Part shown: one piece after another, positions 40,012 through 48,777 of the stretch
Numbering within the stretch: the first letter of the stretch is position 1
Layout: every line of letters starts with the position of its first letter
Assembly (NCBI RefSeq): GCF_019083995.1
Contig: NZ_JAHRCU010000006.1
Coordinates: forward strand, 124,001-188,000
Origin: Roseococcus sp. SDR
GTDB taxonomy: Bacteria; Pseudomonadota; Alphaproteobacteria; Acetobacterales; Acetobacteraceae
Direction of reading: 5' to 3'
DNA: 64,000 nucleotides
The notes under the pieces: generated by a model
The model's input: the letters and a program-made list of their open reading frames with translations, nothing else
Databases searched by the model: none
What the model was told of the DNA's origin: nothing
Program-made: the position numbers and the translations under genes

Positions 40012-40042
40012 CCGACAGATGAACCAAATGTCATCTTGTCGG
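40012..40042. promoter_or_regulatory. Imperfect inverted repeat in the ydfG-like/efflux divergent region
   Basis: CCGACAGATGA and TCATCTTGTCGG pair with a single-base bulge around 8 bp. It lies about 135 bp upstream of the efflux operon start and 94 bp upstream of the SDR start. It could be an operator for a metal-responsive regulator, but no such regulator gene is nearby. Confidence 0.3.
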
Positions 40043-40177
40043 CCGGCGCTGGAGATCGCAGGCATGCGGCACGCCCCACCAGTCCAAGGGGCCTGTTGAG
40101 CCGACTTCCGGAATCGCTCCGGGACCCTGAGCGCTGAGCCGTGCGCTCTCCAGAGGACCTGTATTTGGAGAGTCGTG

Positions 40178-41314
40178 ATGCCCGTCCGCATCGCGCGCCG
40201 CTTGTGCGCGCCCATGCTTCTGCTTGCCGCCCTGCAACCGCCAGTGGCGCGCCCCGCCCTCGCGCAACCCGGCACGCCCGATATCCAGATCCGCCTGGAT
40301 GACCGTCAGTTCCGCGCCGGCGGCTTCGAAATCGGCCGCGTCGAGCCCGAGACCGGCCCCTCCGAAATCCTCCTCCCCGGCCAGGTGGTGGTGCCGCCGA
40401 CGCAGCTCCGTGTCATCGCCGCCCCGGCGGCGGGCCTGATCGAAAGCCTCTTCGTCGCCCCGGATGAGCGGGTGCGCGCCGGCCAGGCCGTGGCCCGGCT
40501 GCGCAGCACCGAGCTGGTGGAGGCGCAGCGCCTCTTCCTCGAGGCCGCGACCGGCGCCGAACTCGCCCAGGAAAAGCTCCGCCGCGACGAAGAGCTGTAT
40601 CGCGAGCGCGTGATCGCCGAGCGCCGCCTGATCGTCACCCGCGCCGAGGCGACGGCGGCCGCCGCCGCGCTGGATGAGCGCACGCAGCTGCTCAACCTCC
40701 TCGGTCTCAGCGATCCGGAGGTGGCGGAGCTGCGCCGCACCCGCCGCATCCAGCAGGGGCTGACGGTGACGAGCCCGGTCTCGGGCGTCGTCCTCGGCCG
40801 CGCCGCGACGCCGGGCGAGCGCGTCGCCCAGGCCGCGCCGCTGATGACCATCGGCGACCTCAGCACCCTCTGGATCAACATCCAGGTCCCACTCTCCCGC
40901 GCGCCCGCGCTGGAAGCCAATGCCCGCGTGCTCGTTCCGGCCCAGGGCGCGGAAGGCTTCGTGCTGCGCATCGGCCGTACCGCCGATGCCGCGACGCAGA
41001 GCGTGACCGCGGTGGCCGAGATGCATCGCGGCGCCGATGCGCTGCGCCCCGGCCAGGCGGTGACCGTGGCGCTGCAGCTGCGCGGCAACGGCATGCCGCA
41101 ATACCGCGTGCCCGCCGGCAGCGTGGTGCGCCACCGTGAGCGCAGCTGGGTCTTCATCCGCACCCCCACCGGCTTCACCGCGCGCCCCGTGACCGTGCTG
41201 AACGAGACGGCGCAATTCACCTCGATCCGCGGCGGGCTCGCGCCCACGGACCAGATCGCCACGCGCGGCCTGCTGGCGCTGCTCGCCGAGCTCTCCGAAG
41301 CGGATGGGGGCTGA
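40178..41314 (+). CDS. CzcB/CusB-type periplasmic membrane-fusion protein
   Basis: 378 residues. A signal peptide (LCAPMLLLAALQPPVARPALA) is followed by a lipoyl/barrel-sandwich domain (VAAPAAGLIESLFVAPDERVRAGQ given as AAPAAGLIESLFVAPDERV), a helical hairpin (about 110-160), and beta-barrel and membrane-proximal domains. It links the RND pump to the outer-membrane factor. GGAGAG is 6 bases before ATG 40178. No Met-rich or His-rich metal-binding stretch is seen, so the metal cannot be named. The pump gene starts 3 bp after its stop. Confidence 0.88.
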   Translation: MPVRIARRLCAPMLLLAALQPPVARPALAQPGTPDIQIRLDDRQFRAGGFEIGRVEPETGPSEILLPGQVVVPPTQLRVIAAPAAGLIESLFVAPDERVRAGQAVARLRSTELVEAQRLFLEAATGAELAQEKLRRDEELYRERVIAERRLIVTRAEATAAAAALDERTQLLNLLGLSDPEVAELRRTRRIQQGLTVTSPVSGVVLGRAATPGERVAQAAPLMTIGDLSTLWINIQVPLSRAPALEANARVLVPAQGAEGFVLRIGRTADAATQSVTAVAEMHRGADALRPGQAVTVALQLRGNGMPQYRVPAGSVVRHRERSWVFIRTPTGFTARPVTVLNETAQFTSIRGGLAPTDQIATRGLLALLAELSEADGG

Positions 41315-41317
41315 ACC

Positions 41318-44300
41318 ATGCTCGGAAAGCTTGTTGATACGGCGCTGCGCCAGCGGCTGCTGGTGCTCATCGCCGCCCTCGGTCTCGCCGTCTGGGGCTT
41401 CCAATCCTACCGGGCCCTGCCGATCGACGCCTTCCCCGACGTGGCGCCGACGCAGGTGCTCGTCTCCATGCGCGCGCCGGGCCTCACGCCGGAGGAGCTG
41501 GAGCGCCGCGTGACCGCCCCGGTCGAGCTCGCGATGCGCGGCATCCCGAACCTCGTCTTCATGCGTTCGGTCACGCGCTTCTCGGTCACGCTGATGACCT
41601 TCGAATTCTCCGCCGGGACCGACATCTACTGGGCCCGCGCCCAGGTGAACGAACGGCTGAACGAGCTGGAGGACCAGCTGCCCGACGGCGTCTCGGGCGG
41701 CCTCGCCCCCATCATCACGCCGCTCGCCGAGATGCTGATGTTCACGCTGGAGGGCGAAAACCTCTCCCCCACCGAGGCGCGCACCCTGATGGACTGGGTG
41801 GTGCGCCCGCAGCTGCGCGCCGTGCCCGGCGTGGCCGATGTGAACGTGCTGGGCGGCTTCGTGCGCACCTATGAGGTCGTCCCCGACCCCGCCGCCATGG
41901 CCGCGCGCGGCATCTCCACCGGCATGCTGGAGGAGGCGCTGGAGCGCAACAACCGCAATGACGGCGCGGGCCGCATCCGCGACGGCGAGGAGGCGCTGCT
42001 GGTCCGCGCCGAGGGCCGCATCCAGTCGCTGGAAGACGTGCGCGCCATCGTGCTCGCCGCCCGCCCCACCGGCGTGGTGCGCGTGGGCGATGTGGCCGAT
42101 GTGCGCTTCGGCGCGCTGCCGCGCAACGGCGTGGTGACGCGCGACGGCGAGGGCGAGGCGGTCTGGGGCATCGTGCTCGGCCTGCGCGGCGCCAATGCGC
42201 GCTCGGTGGTGGAAGGGGCGCGCGCGCGCTTCCCCGCCATCCAGAACGCCCTGCCGGATGGCGTGAACCTCGTCGTCTTCTATGACCGCGCCGACCTGAT
42301 CGGGAAGGCGGTCTGGACCGTGCAGAAGGTGCTGCTGGAGGCGATCGCGCTCGTCGTCGTGCTGCTGATCCTCTTCCTCGGCAACTGGCGGGCGGCGCTG
42401 GTGGTCTCGCTCAGCCTGCCGCTCGCCGTGCTCGTCACCTTCGGGCTGATGAATTACTTCGGCCTCTCGGCCAACATCATGTCGCTCGGCGGCCTCGCCA
42501 TCGCCATCGGCCTGCTGGTGGATTGCGCCGTGGTGGTGGTGGAGAACGCGGCGCATCGCTTCGGCATGGAGAAGATGGCCAAGCTCACCCTCGCCCAGCG
42601 CATCCGCTTCACGGCGGAAGCGACGCGCGAGGTGATGGTGCCCCTCGTCTCGGGCGTCATCATCATCATCGCGGTCTTCGTCCCCCTGCTCTCGCTGCAG
42701 GGGCTGGAAGGCCGGCTCTTCGGGCCGGTCGCGCTCACCATCGCCTTCGCGCTCGTCGCCGCGCTGGCGCTGGCGCTGGCGGTGGTGCCGGTGATGTGCG
42801 CCTTCCTGCTGAAGGGCGGCCACCATAAGGAGCCCTGGCTGGTCCGCAAGCTGCACGCCGCCTATGACCCCTTCCTCGAATGGGCCATGGCGCGCCCCTT
42901 CCGGGTCGCGGCCACCGCCGGCATCGGGCTCGTCCTCGCCGGCCTCGCCTTCACGCGGATCGGCAGCATCTTCATCCCCGTCATGGATGAAGGGACACCG
43001 GTGGTGACGGTGCGCAAGCACCCCACCATCGGCGTCGAGGAAGCCGCCGAGACCGACCAGCGCATCGCGCGCGAGATCATCGCCCGCGTGCCCGAGGTGC
43101 GCGGCATCATGTCCCGCGCCGGCGCCGACGAACTCGGCATCGACCCGGTCGGCCTGAACGAGACGGACATGTTCTTCACCCTCGCCCCGCCGGAGGAATG
43201 GCGGGATGAGGCGAAGCGTGGCGGCACGCCCTGGATCCTCGACCAGGTGCGCCAGGTGCTGGAGGGCTTCCCCGGCACCAGCTTCTCCTTCAGCCAGCCC
43301 ATCGACATGCGCGTGCAGGAGATGATCATCGGCGCGCGCGGCGACGTGGTGATCAAGGTCGTCGGCCCCGACATCCCGGAGCTGAACCGCATCGCGCGCG
43401 AGGTCGCGGCCGCCGTCAACGGTGTCACCGGCAGCGCCGATGTCTTCGCGCTGCGCAACGAGGGCATGAAGTACCTGACGGTCCGCGTGGATCGCCTCGC
43501 CGCCGGCCGCCTCGGCCTGAACGCGAGCGATGTGCAGGAGGCGCTGCGCGTCTGGGTGGATGGCCGCAATGTCGGCCAGGTGCTGGAGGGCGACCGCCGC
43601 ATCCCGCTGCTGCTGCGCGGCGAGGAGGGGCTGCGCCGCTCCGCCGCCGACCTCGCCCGCGTGCAGATCGCACTCCCGGGCGGCGGCACGGTGCTGCTGA
43701 GCCAGGTGGCGGAAATCCGCGAGGAGGAGGGTGCCGTGCAGGTGATCCGCGAACAGGCCGAACGCTTCGCGACGGTGCTGAGCAATGTCCGCGGCCGCGA
43801 CATCGGCGGCTTCGTGGCCGAGGCGCAGGCGCGCGTGGCCGAACGCGTCCAGCTGCCCCAGGGCTACCGCCTCATCTGGGGCGGGCAGTTCGAGAACCAG
43901 CAGCGCGCCCAGGCGCGGCTCGCCATCGTCGTGCCCATCGCGCTCGGCGCCATCTTCCTGCTGCTCTACCTGACCTTCGGCAGCGTGCGGCAGGCCACGC
44001 TGGTCTTCTGCAACGTGCCCTTCGCACTGATCGGCGGCGTGATCGCGCTCTGGGCCTCCGGCGAGTTCATCTCGGTGCCCGCCTCGGTCGGCTTCCTCAC
44101 GCTCATCGGCATCGCGGTGCTGAACGGCGTGGTGCTGATCAGCTACATCAACCGCCTGATCGCGGAGGAAGGCCTCAGCCTCGAACAGGCGGTGCGCGAG
44201 GGGGCGAAGCGCCGCATGACGCCGGTGGTGCTGACGGCGATGATCGCGGCCCTCGCCCTCGTGCCCTTCCTGTTCGCCACCGGCCCGGGCAGCGAGATTC

Positions 44301-45604
44301 AGCGGCCGCTCGCCATCGTCGTCATCGGCGGGCTGGTGACGGCGACGAGCCTGACGCTGATCCTGCTGCCCATCCTCTATGAGCGCTTCGCCCTGCCGCG
44401 GGTGAAGGCGCCGGCGGCGGCGGTGGCGGCGGTGCTGGCCGCGGTGATCCTGCCCATGGGTGCCGCGCAGGCCCAGGGGAATGGGAACGGCCAGCTCGCG
44501 CGGCATCTGGAGGCGGCGCTCGCGCTGGATGCCGGCTTCCGCGGCCTGGAGGCGCAGCGCGGCGCGGCGGCCGCTCGCGGCGCCACCGCGCGTTCGCCCA
44601 TCGCGGGCTCCCCGGCCCTGGGCGGCTCCTTCCGCTCCGGCACGCAGGGGCCGGGCCAGGTGCGCGAGACGGATCTGGAGATCGCGGCCCCCATGTGGCT
44701 GCCGGGCCAGCGCAGCGCGCTGCAGGGCACGGTGGATGGCGCGGTGACCGAGGTGGATGGCCGCATCGCCCTGCGCCGCCTCGAAGTCGCCGGGCTGCTG
44801 CGCGAGGCCTGGTGGGACGCGGCCGAGGCGCGCCGCTCCGCCCAGCTCGCGCGCGAGCGCCTGAACACGGCGCGCGAGATCGCCCGCGACGTGGCCCGCC
44901 GCGCCGATCTGGGCGACATCCCGCCCACCGAGGCGCTGCTGGCGCGCAACGAAACGCTGAGCGCGGAACTTGCCCTCGCCCAGGCCGATGCGGCGGCGGC
45001 GCAGGCCGTCCAGGCCTATCGCACGCTGACCGGCGGGCTGGAGCCGAACCTGCCGGTGGAGACGCCGCGCCAGGCCGCCCGCCACCCGGCGGTGGTTTCG
45101 GCGGAGGCGTCGCTGGCTCATGCGGAAGCACGCCAGCGCCTCGTCGCCGCCACGCCGATGGACAACCCGGAACTCGGCTTCTTCGGCCGGCAGGAGGGCG
45201 GCACGGGAATGAGCGACACGACAAGCCTTGGCCTGCGCGTGCGCATCCCGCTCGCCACGGAGGCCCGCAACGCGCCCCGCCGCGCGGAGGCCGAGAGCGA
45301 CATCACCCGCGCGACGGCCGAACTGACCCAGGCGCGGCGCCTGGTGCAGGCCGCCACCGCCCGCGCCCAGGCCGAGCTGCGCACGAGCGAGGAGGCGCTG
45401 CGCATCGCCCGCCAGCGCCTGGCCCTGGCACGCGAGCAGGAGGCGATCGCGCTGCGCGCCTTCCGCGCGGGCGAGACCGGCACCTTCGACCTGTTCCGCG
45501 TCCGCCAGCTCCGGCTGGAGGCGGCGAATGATGAGGGCGCGGCCAGCATCGCCGCCAGCCGCGCGCGCTCCCGCCTGAACCAGGCGGCGGGGGTGGTGCC
45601 GTAG
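41318..45604 (+). CDS. CzcA/CusA RND pump fused to a TolC-like outer-membrane factor
   Basis: 1428 codons in one frame. Residues 1 to about 1025 are a heavy-metal RND transporter with twelve helices. TM4 reads AIAIGLLVDCAVVVVENA, with Ala, Asp and Glu at the proton-relay positions as in CusA-type pumps rather than CzcA. Residues about 1029-1053 look like a signal peptide (VKAPAAAVAAVLAAVILPM, then AAQAQ), and 1054-1428 form a TolC-family protein (TAREIARDVARRADLGDIPP and the equivalent C-terminal repeat ...GETGTFDLFRVRQ). Normally the outer-membrane factor is a separate gene. An in-frame GTG at 44402 would start a normal 400-residue precursor, but it has no clear ribosome site. Cu/Ag efflux is the best guess. 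Confidence 0.9.
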   Translation: MLGKLVDTALRQRLLVLIAALGLAVWGFQSYRALPIDAFPDVAPTQVLVSMRAPGLTPEELERRVTAPVELAMRGIPNLVFMRSVTRFSVTLMTFEFSAGTDIYWARAQVNERLNELEDQLPDGVSGGLAPIITPLAEMLMFTLEGENLSPTEARTLMDWVVRPQLRAVPGVADVNVLGGFVRTYEVVPDPAAMAARGISTGMLEEALERNNRNDGAGRIRDGEEALLVRAEGRIQSLEDVRAIVLAARPTGVVRVGDVADVRFGALPRNGVVTRDGEGEAVWGIVLGLRGANARSVVEGARARFPAIQNALPDGVNLVVFYDRADLIGKAVWTVQKVLLEAIALVVVLLILFLGNWRAALVVSLSLPLAVLVTFGLMNYFGLSANIMSLGGLAIAIGLLVDCAVVVVENAAHRFGMEKMAKLTLAQRIRFTAEATREVMVPLVSGVIIIIAVFVPLLSLQGLEGRLFGPVALTIAFALVAALALALAVVPVMCAFLLKGGHHKEPWLVRKLHAAYDPFLEWAMARPFRVAATAGIGLVLAGLAFTRIGSIFIPVMDEGTPVVTVRKHPTIGVEEAAETDQRIAREIIARVPEVRGIMSRAGADELGIDPVGLNETDMFFTLAPPEEWRDEAKRGGTPWILDQVRQVLEGFPGTSFSFSQPIDMRVQEMIIGARGDVVIKVVGPDIPELNRIAREVAAAVNGVTGSADVFALRNEGMKYLTVRVDRLAAGRLGLNASDVQEALRVWVDGRNVGQVLEGDRRIPLLLRGEEGLRRSAADLARVQIALPGGGTVLLSQVAEIREEEGAVQVIREQAERFATVLSNVRGRDIGGFVAEAQARVAERVQLPQGYRLIWGGQFENQQRAQARLAIVVPIALGAIFLLLYLTFGSVRQATLVFCNVPFALIGGVIALWASGEFISVPASVGFLTLIGIAVLNGVVLISYINRLIAEEGLSLEQAVREGAKRRMTPVVLTAMIAALALVPFLFATGPGSEIQRPLAIVVIGGLVTATSLTLILLPILYERFALPRVKAPAAAVAAVLAAVILPMGAAQAQGNGNGQLARHLEAALALDAGFRGLEAQRGAAAARGATARSPIAGSPALGGSFRSGTQGPGQVRETDLEIAAPMWLPGQRSALQGTVDGAVTEVDGRIALRRLEVAGLLREAWWDAAEARRSAQLARERLNTAREIARDVARRADLGDIPPTEALLARNETLSAELALAQADAAAAQAVQAYRTLTGGLEPNLPVETPRQAARHPAVVSAEASLAHAEARQRLVAATPMDNPELGFFGRQEGGTGMSDTTSLGLRVRIPLATEARNAPRRAEAESDITRATAELTQARRLVQAATARAQAELRTSEEALRIARQRLALAREQEAIALRAFRAGETGTFDLFRVRQLRLEAANDEGAASIAASRARSRLNQAAGVVP

Positions 45605-45605
45605 C

Positions 45606-45656
45606 GGGAGCATGATCCGCGGAGGCGGCTTCGCCGAAGCGGTGAATCATCCTCCC
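45606..45656. repeat. Hairpin repeat, ATGAT-C...GTGA-ATCAT type
   Basis: GCATGATCCGC at the left and GAAGCGGTGAATCATCC at the right, with a GGCGGCTTCGCC stem-loop in between. The outer arms ATGAT/ATCAT pair and leave C opposite GTGA. A close copy is at 61511-61560, and a left-half copy follows at 45661-45680. Confidence 0.65.
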
Positions 45657-46602: not shown

Positions 46603-47631
46603 TCATCGCATCGGCAGGGGGTACATCAGCCCGCCATTGGTCCAGAGGTTGTTCGGGCCTCGCGGCAATGCCACGGGCGTATTCTCTCCCATCGTGCGCT
46701 CATACAGCTCGCCGTAATTGCCGATGGCGCGCACCACATTGTAGGCCCAGAGCGGATCCAACTTCAATGCCTGGCCCAGCTCCGGCGTCACGCCCAGCAG
46801 GCGGCGCGTGTTGGGGTTGGTGCTGGTGCGGCGCATCTGCTCGGCATTGGCCTGGGTCACGCCCTGTTCCTCGGCTTCCAGCAGCGCGGTGGTGTACCAG
46901 CGCACCAGCTCGAACCAGTCATCATCGCCGCGGCGGACATAGGCACCGTAGGGCTCCTTGCTGAAACGCTCGGGCAGAACGGTCCATTCGCGCGGGTTCT
47001 GCATGGTGGAGCGCACGGCGGCGAGTTGCGAGGCGTCGGAGCCGAAGCTGTCGCAGCGGCCAGCCTGCAGCGCCGCGGCCGCCTGGTCGGTGCGCTCGAA
47101 GACCACGGGGCGGAAGGGCACGTTGATGCTGCGGAAGTAATCCGCCGTCACCTGCTCATTCGTCGTGCCCTGGATGAGGCAGATGGTGGCGCCGTTCATC
47201 TCGCGCACCTGGCGGACGCCCAGGCTGTTGCGCACCAGGAAGCCGTGGCCATCGTAGAAATAGGTGGTCACGTGGCGCAGGCCGAGCGTCGTGTCGCGCA
47301 GCATGGTCTGCGTCGAGGTGCGGAACAGCACGTCGATCTCGCCCGAGCCCAGCGCCGTGAAGCGCGTGGAGGAGGAGAGCGGGACGAAGCGCACCTTGGA
47401 CGCGTCATTGAAGATGGCGACGGCCAGGCCGCGGCAGAGATCCACATCCAGCCCCTGCCAGGTGCCGCGGCTGTCGGGCAACGCGAAGCCAGCCACACCC
47501 GTATGGATGCCGCAGATCAGCGTGCCGCGCGCGCGGATCTGATCCAGCGTCGGGCCGGCCTGGGCTGCCGTTCCCACGAACATCGCACATGCCGCGACCA
47601 GCGCGGCTCGGATGGTCCGATCCCACTTCAT
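46603..47631 (-). CDS. AapJ-like amino-acid ABC substrate-binding protein (copy 1)
   Basis: 342 residues with a signal peptide (MKWDRTIRAALVAACAMFVG...AQA). It belongs to the general L-amino-acid binding family: LDQIRARGTLICGIHTGVAG, DSRGTWQGLDVDLCRGLAVA, and the C-terminal WAYNVVRAIGNYGELYERTMG. It captures polar amino acids in the periplasm. No aapQMP permease or ATPase genes are in the window, and a paralogue lies immediately upstream. GAGGCAGG precedes the start. It is terminated at 46502-46533. Confidence 0.88.
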   Translation of the reverse strand: MKWDRTIRAALVAACAMFVGTAAQAGPTLDQIRARGTLICGIHTGVAGFALPDSRGTWQGLDVDLCRGLAVAIFNDASKVRFVPLSSSTRFTALGSGEIDVLFRTSTQTMLRDTTLGLRHVTTYFYDGHGFLVRNSLGVRQVREMNGATICLIQGTTNEQVTADYFRSINVPFRPVVFERTDQAAAALQAGRCDSFGSDASQLAAVRSTMQNPREWTVLPERFSKEPYGAYVRRGDDDWFELVRWYTTALLEAEEQGVTQANAEQMRRTSTNPNTRRLLGVTPELGQALKLDPLWAYNVVRAIGNYGELYERTMGENTPVALPRGPNNLWTNGGLMYPLPMR

Positions 47632-47736: not shown

Positions 47737-48777
47737 TCAGCGAAAGGGCGGCGCGTCATGCAACCCGCCGCGCGTCCAGAGTTCGTTGCTGCCGCGCGGC
47801 ATGGCGAGCGGCGTATGGGGGCCCAGGTGGCGGGCATAGAGCTCGCCGTAATTGCCGATGGCCTTGATGGCGTTCAGCGCCCAGGCAGGGTCCACGCGCA
47901 GCGCCTGGCCCACCTCGGGCACGGCGCCCAACAGGCGGCGGATATTCGCATCCTGCGTGATACGGCGCATTTCATCCGCATTGGCGGCGGTGATGCCCGC
48001 CTCCTCCGCCTCGAAGAGGGCGAAGGTGAACCAGCGCACCAGTTCGAACCAGCTTTCGTCGCCGCGCCGGATGACGGCGGTGTAGGGCTCCTTCGAGAAG
48101 AGTTGCGGCAGGATGACCCAGGCATTGGGGTCCGGCAGGGAGGAGCGCATGGCGGCGAGGCCCGAGGCATCGAAGCCGAAGGCGTCGCAGCGCCCGGCGG
48201 CGAGTGCCGCGCGCACCTGTTCGTTCTGCTCGAAGAGCACGGGGCGGAAGGTCAGGTTCTGGCTGCGGAAATACTCGGCCGTAATCTGCTCATTCGTCGT
48301 GCCAGGCTGCAGGCAGATGGTGGCACCGGCGAGGCCCCGCACCTCGCTCACATTCGCGTCGCGCCGGACCATGAAGCCGTGCCCGTCATAGAAATAGGGC
48401 TGCACGAAGCGCAGGCCGAGCGTCGTGTCGCGCAGCACGGTCTGCGTGCTGGTGAGGAAGAGCAGGTCCACCTCGCCCGCGCCGAGCGCGGTGAAGCGCG
48501 TGGCGAAGGAGAGCGGCACGAAGCGCAGCTTGGTCGCATCGCCGAAGATGGCCGCCGCCAGCCCACGGCAGAGATCGGCCACCAAGCCGCGATACTCGCC
48601 CCGGCTGTCCACCGTGGTGAAGCCGGGCGTATTGGCGTTCACGCCGCAGGCCAGCGTGCCGCGGGCACGCACCTGCTCCAAGGTATGGGCGGTGGGCGGC
48701 GCCGTCTGGGCCGCGGCGGCGAGCGGGAGCCCGAGCATGGCCCAGAGGGCCAGCAGGGGCGGGGCGATGCGGCGCAT
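47737..48777 (-). CDS. AapJ-like amino-acid ABC substrate-binding protein (copy 2)
   Basis: 346 residues, signal peptide MRRIAPPLLALWAMLGLPLA. It is clearly paralogous to the protein encoded at 46603-47631 along its whole length (shared blocks DSRGxxxGLxxDLCRGLA, STQTxLRDTTLGLR, FYDGHGF, RCDxFGxDAS, AIGNYGELY). The two arose by tandem duplication and have diverged. Binding preference may differ. It has no transporter partner nearby. Confidence 0.88.
   Translation of the reverse strand: MRRIAPPLLALWAMLGLPLAAAAQTAPPTAHTLEQVRARGTLACGVNANTPGFTTVDSRGEYRGLVADLCRGLAAAIFGDATKLRFVPLSFATRFTALGAGEVDLLFLTSTQTVLRDTTLGLRFVQPYFYDGHGFMVRRDANVSEVRGLAGATICLQPGTTNEQITAEYFRSQNLTFRPVLFEQNEQVRAALAAGRCDAFGFDASGLAAMRSSLPDPNAWVILPQLFSKEPYTAVIRRGDESWFELVRWFTFALFEAEEAGITAANADEMRRITQDANIRRLLGAVPEVGQALRVDPAWALNAIKAIGNYGELYARHLGPHTPLAMPRGSNELWTRGGLHDAPPFR

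Follow-up and report, generated by a model that had tools for sequence, protein, structure and literature searches.

Within the window (the whole 64,000-nucleotide stretch of DNA that was analysed), a single open reading frame on the plus strand, 41318..45604, runs for 1428 codons from an ATG with zero internal stops. As the earlier note had recognised, it encodes in one frame a CusA/CzcA-type RND pump and a full outer-membrane factor (OMF): Pfam locates ACR_tran at residues 6-1022 (E 1.1e-278) and the best stretch of OEP at residues 1252-1425 (E 5.1e-20), and NCBIfam TIGR00914 (CusA/CzcA) matches over its full length, across residues 1-1026, with 992 bits against a cut-off of 701, which places the pump among the CusA/CzcA (HME) RND pumps. 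The gene for a periplasmic adaptor, scoring 99.8 bits with TIGR01730 (cut-off 94.9) and 1.7e-32 with HlyD_D23, ends 3 nt before the ATG of the pump. The features of the locus are:

40175..41314, plus strand: periplasmic adaptor, a CusB/CzcB-type membrane fusion protein of 379 aa (TIGR01730, HlyD_D23)
41318..44401, plus strand: HME-type RND pump, residues 1-1028 of the fused frame (TIGR00914; ZneA and CusA matches)
44402..44405, plus strand: GTGA, an in-frame GTG with a TGA in the +1 frame (duplex energy +1.7)
44417..44452, plus strand: hydrophobic run AAVAAVLAAVIL, residues 1034-1045, a predicted thirteenth helix (mean hydropathy 2.96)
44465..44476, plus strand: signal peptidase I motif A-Q-A-Q, residues 1050-1053, with the predicted cut before the last residue (44473/44474)
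44474..45604, plus strand: predicted mature TolC/CusC-like OMF, stop codon included (OEP, predicted model, Foldseek)

G+C at third codon positions is 0.947 for the pump, 0.946 across the joint and 0.927 for the OMF part. The minus strand holds a 1860-aa frame overlying the fused gene, which we read as a shadow cast by biased codon usage.

The nearest solved relatives of the pump are ZneA (2e-183) and CusA (1.5e-172). Where CusA is taken to have its methionine triad, the window pump has Thr, Glu and Glu, and a Met adjoins the third, as aligned by eye on the printed CusA alignment. Because of these residues the sequence does not indicate Cu/Ag binding of the CusA type; the substrate of the exporter is presumably a metal. 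The predicted model of the OMF part (pLDDT mostly >90) has four strands and long helices, and this fold and the OEP domain both point to a TolC-type factor with a beta-barrel and an alpha-barrel. Foldseek matched the model to TolC, SilC and CusC with E-values of 1e-12 to 1e-15 at 13-20% identity; a sequence profile of the OMF found no relative among solved structures at E 0.01. The joint itself (model residues 168-194) has pLDDT <50, and the model is uninformative on the thirteenth helix.

Tripartite exporters are textbook three-gene machines. The locus resembles the HME-RND exporters CzcCBA, CusCFBA and ZneCAB in its TIGR00914 pump, its adaptor encoded directly upstream and the TolC/CusC-like fold of its OMF, but differs in that its OMF follows the pump and shares the pump's frame. 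Among 77 named loci, 28 have the OMF upstream of the pump, and these are titled mostly as beta- or gammaproteobacteria.

The survey of fused and split forms in Acetobacteraceae that the earlier note had proposed gave 13 fused and 33 split loci among 46 orthologs. To be scored as fused, a locus had to carry pump and OMF in a single frame with a single stop. Length of the open frame by itself was rejected as a sign of fusion: owing to high G+C, several split loci exceed 1300 aa in the frame of the OMF (G175, 1381 aa; G024, 1352; G200, 1438; G290, 1502; G393, 1554). The same kind of fused frame thus recurs in 12 genomes beyond the window, including the isolates Rhodovarius lipocyclicus and R. crocodyli, a one-contig assembly (G210) and a two-contig assembly (G204); in G216 and G222 contig ends cut the pump, and the joint is covered. 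Split loci, both in Acetobacteraceae (Belnapia, Roseicella, Siccirubricoccus, Rubritepida flocculans) and in Methylocystis, encode pumps and OMFs of the same subfamilies, the OMF coming directly after the pump; in contrast to the window, a stop codon closes the pump ahead of the OMF. Nearly half of the 33 split pumps (16) end in GCGGAGTGA, and in 26 the ATG of the OMF lies close to the pump stop, 5 nt past it in 14 cases.

An initial survey had matched 58 of 200 genomes at E 0.001, of which 16 with E <1e-60 were kept (a weak second match in G200, at 37%, was left out). At E 1e-60 the class-wide search for relatives retrieved one of 289 genomes, the window's own. In a TIGR00914 survey of 150 genomes across the phylum, no frame of at least 1380 aa occurred among the matches listed (longest 1332), all of which score above the window pump, whose subfamily lies outside this coverage. 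The similar fusions that the earlier note mentioned for Bacteroidetes were not confirmed in a very small sample, six Bacteroidota plasmid records from two species: none of the three matches, which lie on two of these records, is fused. Two of them, of 1033 and 1034 aa, exceed the CusA/CzcA cut-off, and the third, of 1058 aa, falls short of it. The fusion was found here only in some Acetobacteraceae.

At the window's junction, the DNA agrees with the earlier view that an old signal peptide is kept, with an in-frame GTG at 44402 and the AQAQ motif. The net charge is +3 ahead of the run, and the junction has the features of a signal peptidase I substrate: a basic n-region, a hydrophobic core, predicted to be the former signal-peptide core, and small residues at -3 and -1. 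We infer cleavage within A-Q-A-Q, before the final Q. In all 13 fused junctions a hydrophobic run is retained and A-x-(A/G)-Q comes just after it, with six different residues at the variable -2 position. In composition shuffles the motif arises with a chance of 0.03-0.48 per sequence; the largest values per lineage, multiplied over five lineages, give 7.6e-4. A motif-blind codon test found no significant extra constraint on the motif (p 0.17-0.19). An earlier codon-constraint test (p 0.003), in which two of nine split sister pairs had no anchor, was withdrawn as circular, the alignment having used the motif itself. The signal peptide may also persist simply because the fusions are young.

How might such a gene give a working exporter? 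The fused frame recurs, it retains the run and A-x-A-Q, and it has lost the old start signals. We consider it likely, from sequence features, that one precursor is cut into a 13-helix pump and a free OMF that enter ordinary tripartite assembly. In this precursor, the old signal peptide and the OMF would follow the twelfth helix of an HME-RND pump. The loop RFALPRVK, which is short and basic, would remain cytoplasmic, and the former signal-peptide core would insert as a thirteenth helix whose C-end faces the periplasm. Signal peptidase I would then cleave after A-Q-A (44471-44473), releasing a normal OMF to the outer membrane and leaving the pump with one extra helix. Pump and OMF would presumably join the adaptor encoded upstream to form an ordinary tripartite metal exporter. 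The fusion itself probably arose from a split pair by loss of the pump tail and its stop codon and of the ribosome-binding site and ATG of the OMF.

There is a precedent for this layout. In FbcH an inner-membrane protein runs into an exported one via an internal signal peptide that is cut by signal peptidase; it is the Bradyrhizobium cytochrome b/c1 polyprotein, reportedly described by Thony-Meyer et al. in 1991. Two of 30 cytochrome c1 loci in our data have cytochromes b and c1 in one frame with this layout, and the window likewise has a membrane protein, a signal peptide and an exported protein in one frame; two mature proteins probably come from one fused precursor. The proteins are, however, unrelated to those of FbcH, the freed OMF would be destined for the outer membrane, and here cleavage is predicted.

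The earlier note had rightly put the choice as one between a thirteenth helix and cleavage. Were the fusion to stay uncut, the run would be a permanent thirteenth helix tethering the OMF to the pump, as the single open frame in 13 fused loci of several lineages would allow. We regard this as quite improbable, given that every one of these junctions carries A-x-(A/G)-Q and that only 6-22 residues (14 in the window) separate the run from the first OMF helix. In TolC-type complexes that helix lies far from the inner membrane, and, given the dimensions of the tripartite complex, an uncut OMF on such a tether would fall short of its position. The sequence thus favours cleavage, because an uncut OMF would sit beside the inner membrane. 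An artefact is the least credible explanation of all, and we reject it. The earlier note had envisaged a sequencing error near 44402, and a single indel would indeed bring in the +1-frame TGA at 44403 and give a split gene; yet twelve other assemblies, among them the one-contig and two-contig ones, have in-frame joints, and G210 has no TGA at the equivalent place, its first +1-frame stop coming 24 nt later than in its clade-mates. The earlier note had also counted a stop codon at the joint in a relative against the fusion. Such a stop is present in the split near relative G214, 11 codons beyond the same Arg, but the fusion stands, since none of the other six assemblies in the window's fused clade has it.

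Alternatively, the frames may be joined with the OMF made mainly from its own internal start, the fusion being mostly incidental. This we judge unlikely, though a little less so than an uncut fusion. The GTG at the joint is kept in all seven sequences of the window's clade (GTGA, possibly a relic of the old stop, in six), and strongly pairing GTGs occur ahead of the hydrophobic run in G217 (-8.6) and G220 (-9.5) and at its start in G207 (-8.0); in these three the OMF may be started separately. GTG codons also lie within the window's run (pairing -5.0, -6.3 and -6.3) and may serve as starts, but initiation there would shorten the signal peptide and remove its basic end. At or ahead of the run the window offers a single start codon, GTG 44402, which has a duplex energy of +1.7 and no ribosome-binding site. 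Likewise, a start codon at or ahead of the run with a Shine-Dalgarno duplex energy <=-5 is missing from 10 of the 13 fused loci; 22 of the 26 split loci with an ATG beside the pump stop reach this level. Since no stop separates pump from OMF, a ribosome continuing past the pump makes the fusion.

Did the fusion happen once or several times? A single clade of fused loci is rejected (AU p 1.5e-5), and the fused and split states require four changes on the pump tree, four on the joint tree and three on the OMF tree. Adding G251, in a 42-row tree, gave five changes by a quick method; this tree omits seven of the 46 loci (two whose pump differs, three that are short and two near-copies), and takes as outgroup three rows drawn from Methylocystis and from a Hyphomicrobiales assembly. 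The trees are best read as four or five fusions out of a split pump-then-OMF order. One ancient fusion followed by several fissions is a separate question from mechanism; by our count, one gain and four losses are only one step dearer than four gains on the joint tree, and the OMF-only tree places G072/G220 with G221/G222. We nevertheless hold a single origin to be unlikely, because the pump ending and nearby OMF ATG common to split loci in and outside the mixed clade would be hard to regain after fusion. The linkers of fused loci also vary in length and sequence among lineages, and the G251 lineage falls among split loci.

We found no natural RND-OMF fusion in the literature, as judged by titles and the start of abstracts; the portions consulted of PMC8277102 and PMC4827864 mention none, and those of PMC10434189, PMC2864759, PMC7726332 and PMC5837995 hold nothing bearing on it. 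Our suggestion that fusion was repeatedly selected, through a single precursor, a fixed 1:1 ratio, cleavage that couples OMF release to pump insertion and a functional thirteenth helix, is tentative, and we lean against it. RND pumps and OMFs are both trimers and 1:1 is their normal ratio, so the conflict with trimer assembly that the earlier note saw was mistaken. Repeated fusion of pump and exit duct, the export signal being retained within the chain, would be a natural experiment on how the numbers of pump and duct are set; if the precursor is cut, these loci would join FbcH as a further bacterial example of a membrane polyprotein that signal peptidase matures. With both fused and split relatives at hand, some of them isolates, the proposal is directly testable. 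We suggest that the annotation of such genes give two mature products; the homologues on a Methylocystis rosea plasmid are annotated as two genes.

The window's CusA/CzcA-type RND pump and TolC-like outer-membrane factor (OMF) share one reading frame, and the gene order is adaptor, pump, OMF:

40175-41314, adaptor gene, its stop 3 nt 5' of the pump ATG
41318-45604, plus strand, pump-OMF fused frame, open over 1428 codons

This frame scores 992 bits against TIGR00914 (CusA/CzcA; cut-off 701), with an ACR_tran match at residues 6-1022 and an OEP match at 1252-1425; ZneA and CusA are the closest solved pumps by sequence. Four other TIGR00914 matches above cut-off in the same genome lie in frames of 1048-1053 amino acids and are unfused. 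In a structure predicted for residues 861-1428 from 60 aligned rows (mean pLDDT 89.3), which is unreliable at the joint, the OMF has four strands and long helices. Foldseek matched the OMF to TolC, SilC and CusC and the pump end to ZneA and CusA, and the OMF sequence profile had no match among solved structures at E 0.01. A 1860-aa antisense ORF (40031-45613, minus strand) spans the entire adaptor-pump-OMF region and is probably a mere shadow of extreme codon bias.

The in-frame fusion claimed in the earlier note is real and recurrent. We found the OMF at E <=1e-40 in 15 of 21 genomes of the window's genus, in 6 of 60 genomes of a set centred on Rhodovarius lipocyclicus CCUG 44693 (G072), and at E 1e-60 in 39 of 397 genomes of the family. 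Joints were read at 46 loci in 44 genomes: 33 are split by a stop codon, as in Rubritepida flocculans DSM 14296, and 13 are fused. The fused loci belong to the window's genus (the window itself, G000, with genomes G204, G212, G213, G207, G216 and G210), to genus g72 (R. lipocyclicus, R. crocodyli CCP-6 (G220), G221, G222 and G217) and to genus g16 (G251); contig ends interrupt the pump in G216 and G222. Since there are 13 such loci, including those of a one-contig (G210) and a two-contig (G204) assembly, a sequencing or assembly error at the joint is excluded for practical purposes.

Judged from its sequence, the fusion is most likely a polyprotein, from which cleavage by signal peptidase I would yield the parts of a conventional tripartite metal exporter. 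The last pump helix is followed by a short linker, positively charged in 12 of 13 fused loci (-1 in G217), a hydrophobic run resembling a former signal-peptide core (12-residue mean hydropathy 2.27-2.96) and the predicted cleavage motif A-x-(A/G)-Q. Position -3 is always Ala, -1 is Ala in 12 joints and Gly in one, +1 is always Gln, and -2 takes six different residues; the motif residues were imposed by the search pattern, and the result is that the motif directly follows the run in all 13 joints. Composition shuffles put its chance occurrence at 0.03-0.48 per sequence, and multiplying the largest value per lineage over five lineages gives 7.6e-4. A motif-blind comparison of five sister pairs, poorly aligned owing to indels, detected no significant extra codon constraint on the motif (p 0.17-0.19). 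The hydrophobic run and the conserved LxxH of the first OMF helix stand 6-22 residues apart (the window has 14), a tether of about 20-80 angstrom at some 3.5 angstrom per residue. In assembled pumps, the inner membrane lies farther than this from the corresponding part of TolC; an OMF functional in the outer membrane must therefore be released by cutting. The concern over stoichiometry in the earlier note proves unfounded, because RND pumps and OMFs are both trimers.

Could the OMF instead be translated separately? In the window, GTG 44402 is the sole start codon at or before the run, with a pairing energy of +1.7; GTG codons within it have energies of -5.0 to -6.3, and starts there would yield a signal peptide without a basic end. 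At or before the run, 10 of 13 fused loci have no start at <= -5. Strong pairing in G207 (-8.0), G217 (-8.6) and G220 (-9.5) makes a second product possible there. At locus L076 of R. crocodyli, GGAGGAG-CAC-GTGA within the fused frame at the joint resembles an intact ribosome-binding site and GTG start, so that a separate OMF may be made there besides the fusion.

A precedent is the cytochrome b/c1 of Bradyrhizobium, made as a single chain, FbcH, and cut at an internal signal peptide. We found cytochrome c1 in 92 of 115 genomes of the class; by simple motifs, cytochromes b and c1 share one frame in 2 of 30 fetched loci (L201 and L229), although the 1500-base flanks may hide others. Both have the FbcH arrangement with an internal signal peptide, and resemble the pump-OMF joints in their succession of helix, linker, hydrophobic run and small residues.

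The 77 loci taken from named genomes comprise 10 fused loci, whose genomes are all among those counted above, 37 with the OMF in a separate frame downstream of the pump, 28 with the OMF 5' of the pump, and two without a pump. Direct fusion is possible only from the downstream order, seen in Acetobacteraceae, Methylocystis and one Hyphomicrobiales assembly, the sole odd case being L169 (gap 2119 nt). The pump C-terminus is GCGGAGTGA in 16 of 33 split loci, and GGAG immediately precedes the pump stop in 20. An OMF-frame ATG lies at -1 to +11 nt from that stop in 26 (at 5 nt in 14 of those), with a Shine-Dalgarno duplex energy of <= -5 in 22 of the 26. The pump tail of split loci thus seems to double as carrier of the OMF ribosome-binding site. 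Tail, stop, ribosome-binding site and OMF ATG are all gone from fused loci. A single fused clade is rejected (AU p 1.5e-5; 12 rows against 30). The pump, joint and OMF trees, built before G251 was found, require 4, 4 and 3 fused/split changes, and a 42-row tree by a quick method requires 5. One fusion followed by fissions is a less likely account of these changes than four or five separate fusions, because the split ending is common to loci inside and outside the mixed clade.

Two second loci in Roseicella (L086 and L087, in G112 and G024) carry the same OMF subfamily (55% identity) 3' of a very different RND pump (43% identity), a sign that exchange of pump and OMF genes has probably taken place. 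In Roseomonas acroporae (L085, G059), the OMF match starts more than 600 nt past the pump stop, separated from it by a long proline-rich stretch in the OMF frame. Elsewhere in the window, two adjacent minus-strand genes (46603-47631 and 47737-48777) encode proteins similar to each other by eye, the former matching a family-3 solute-binding domain.
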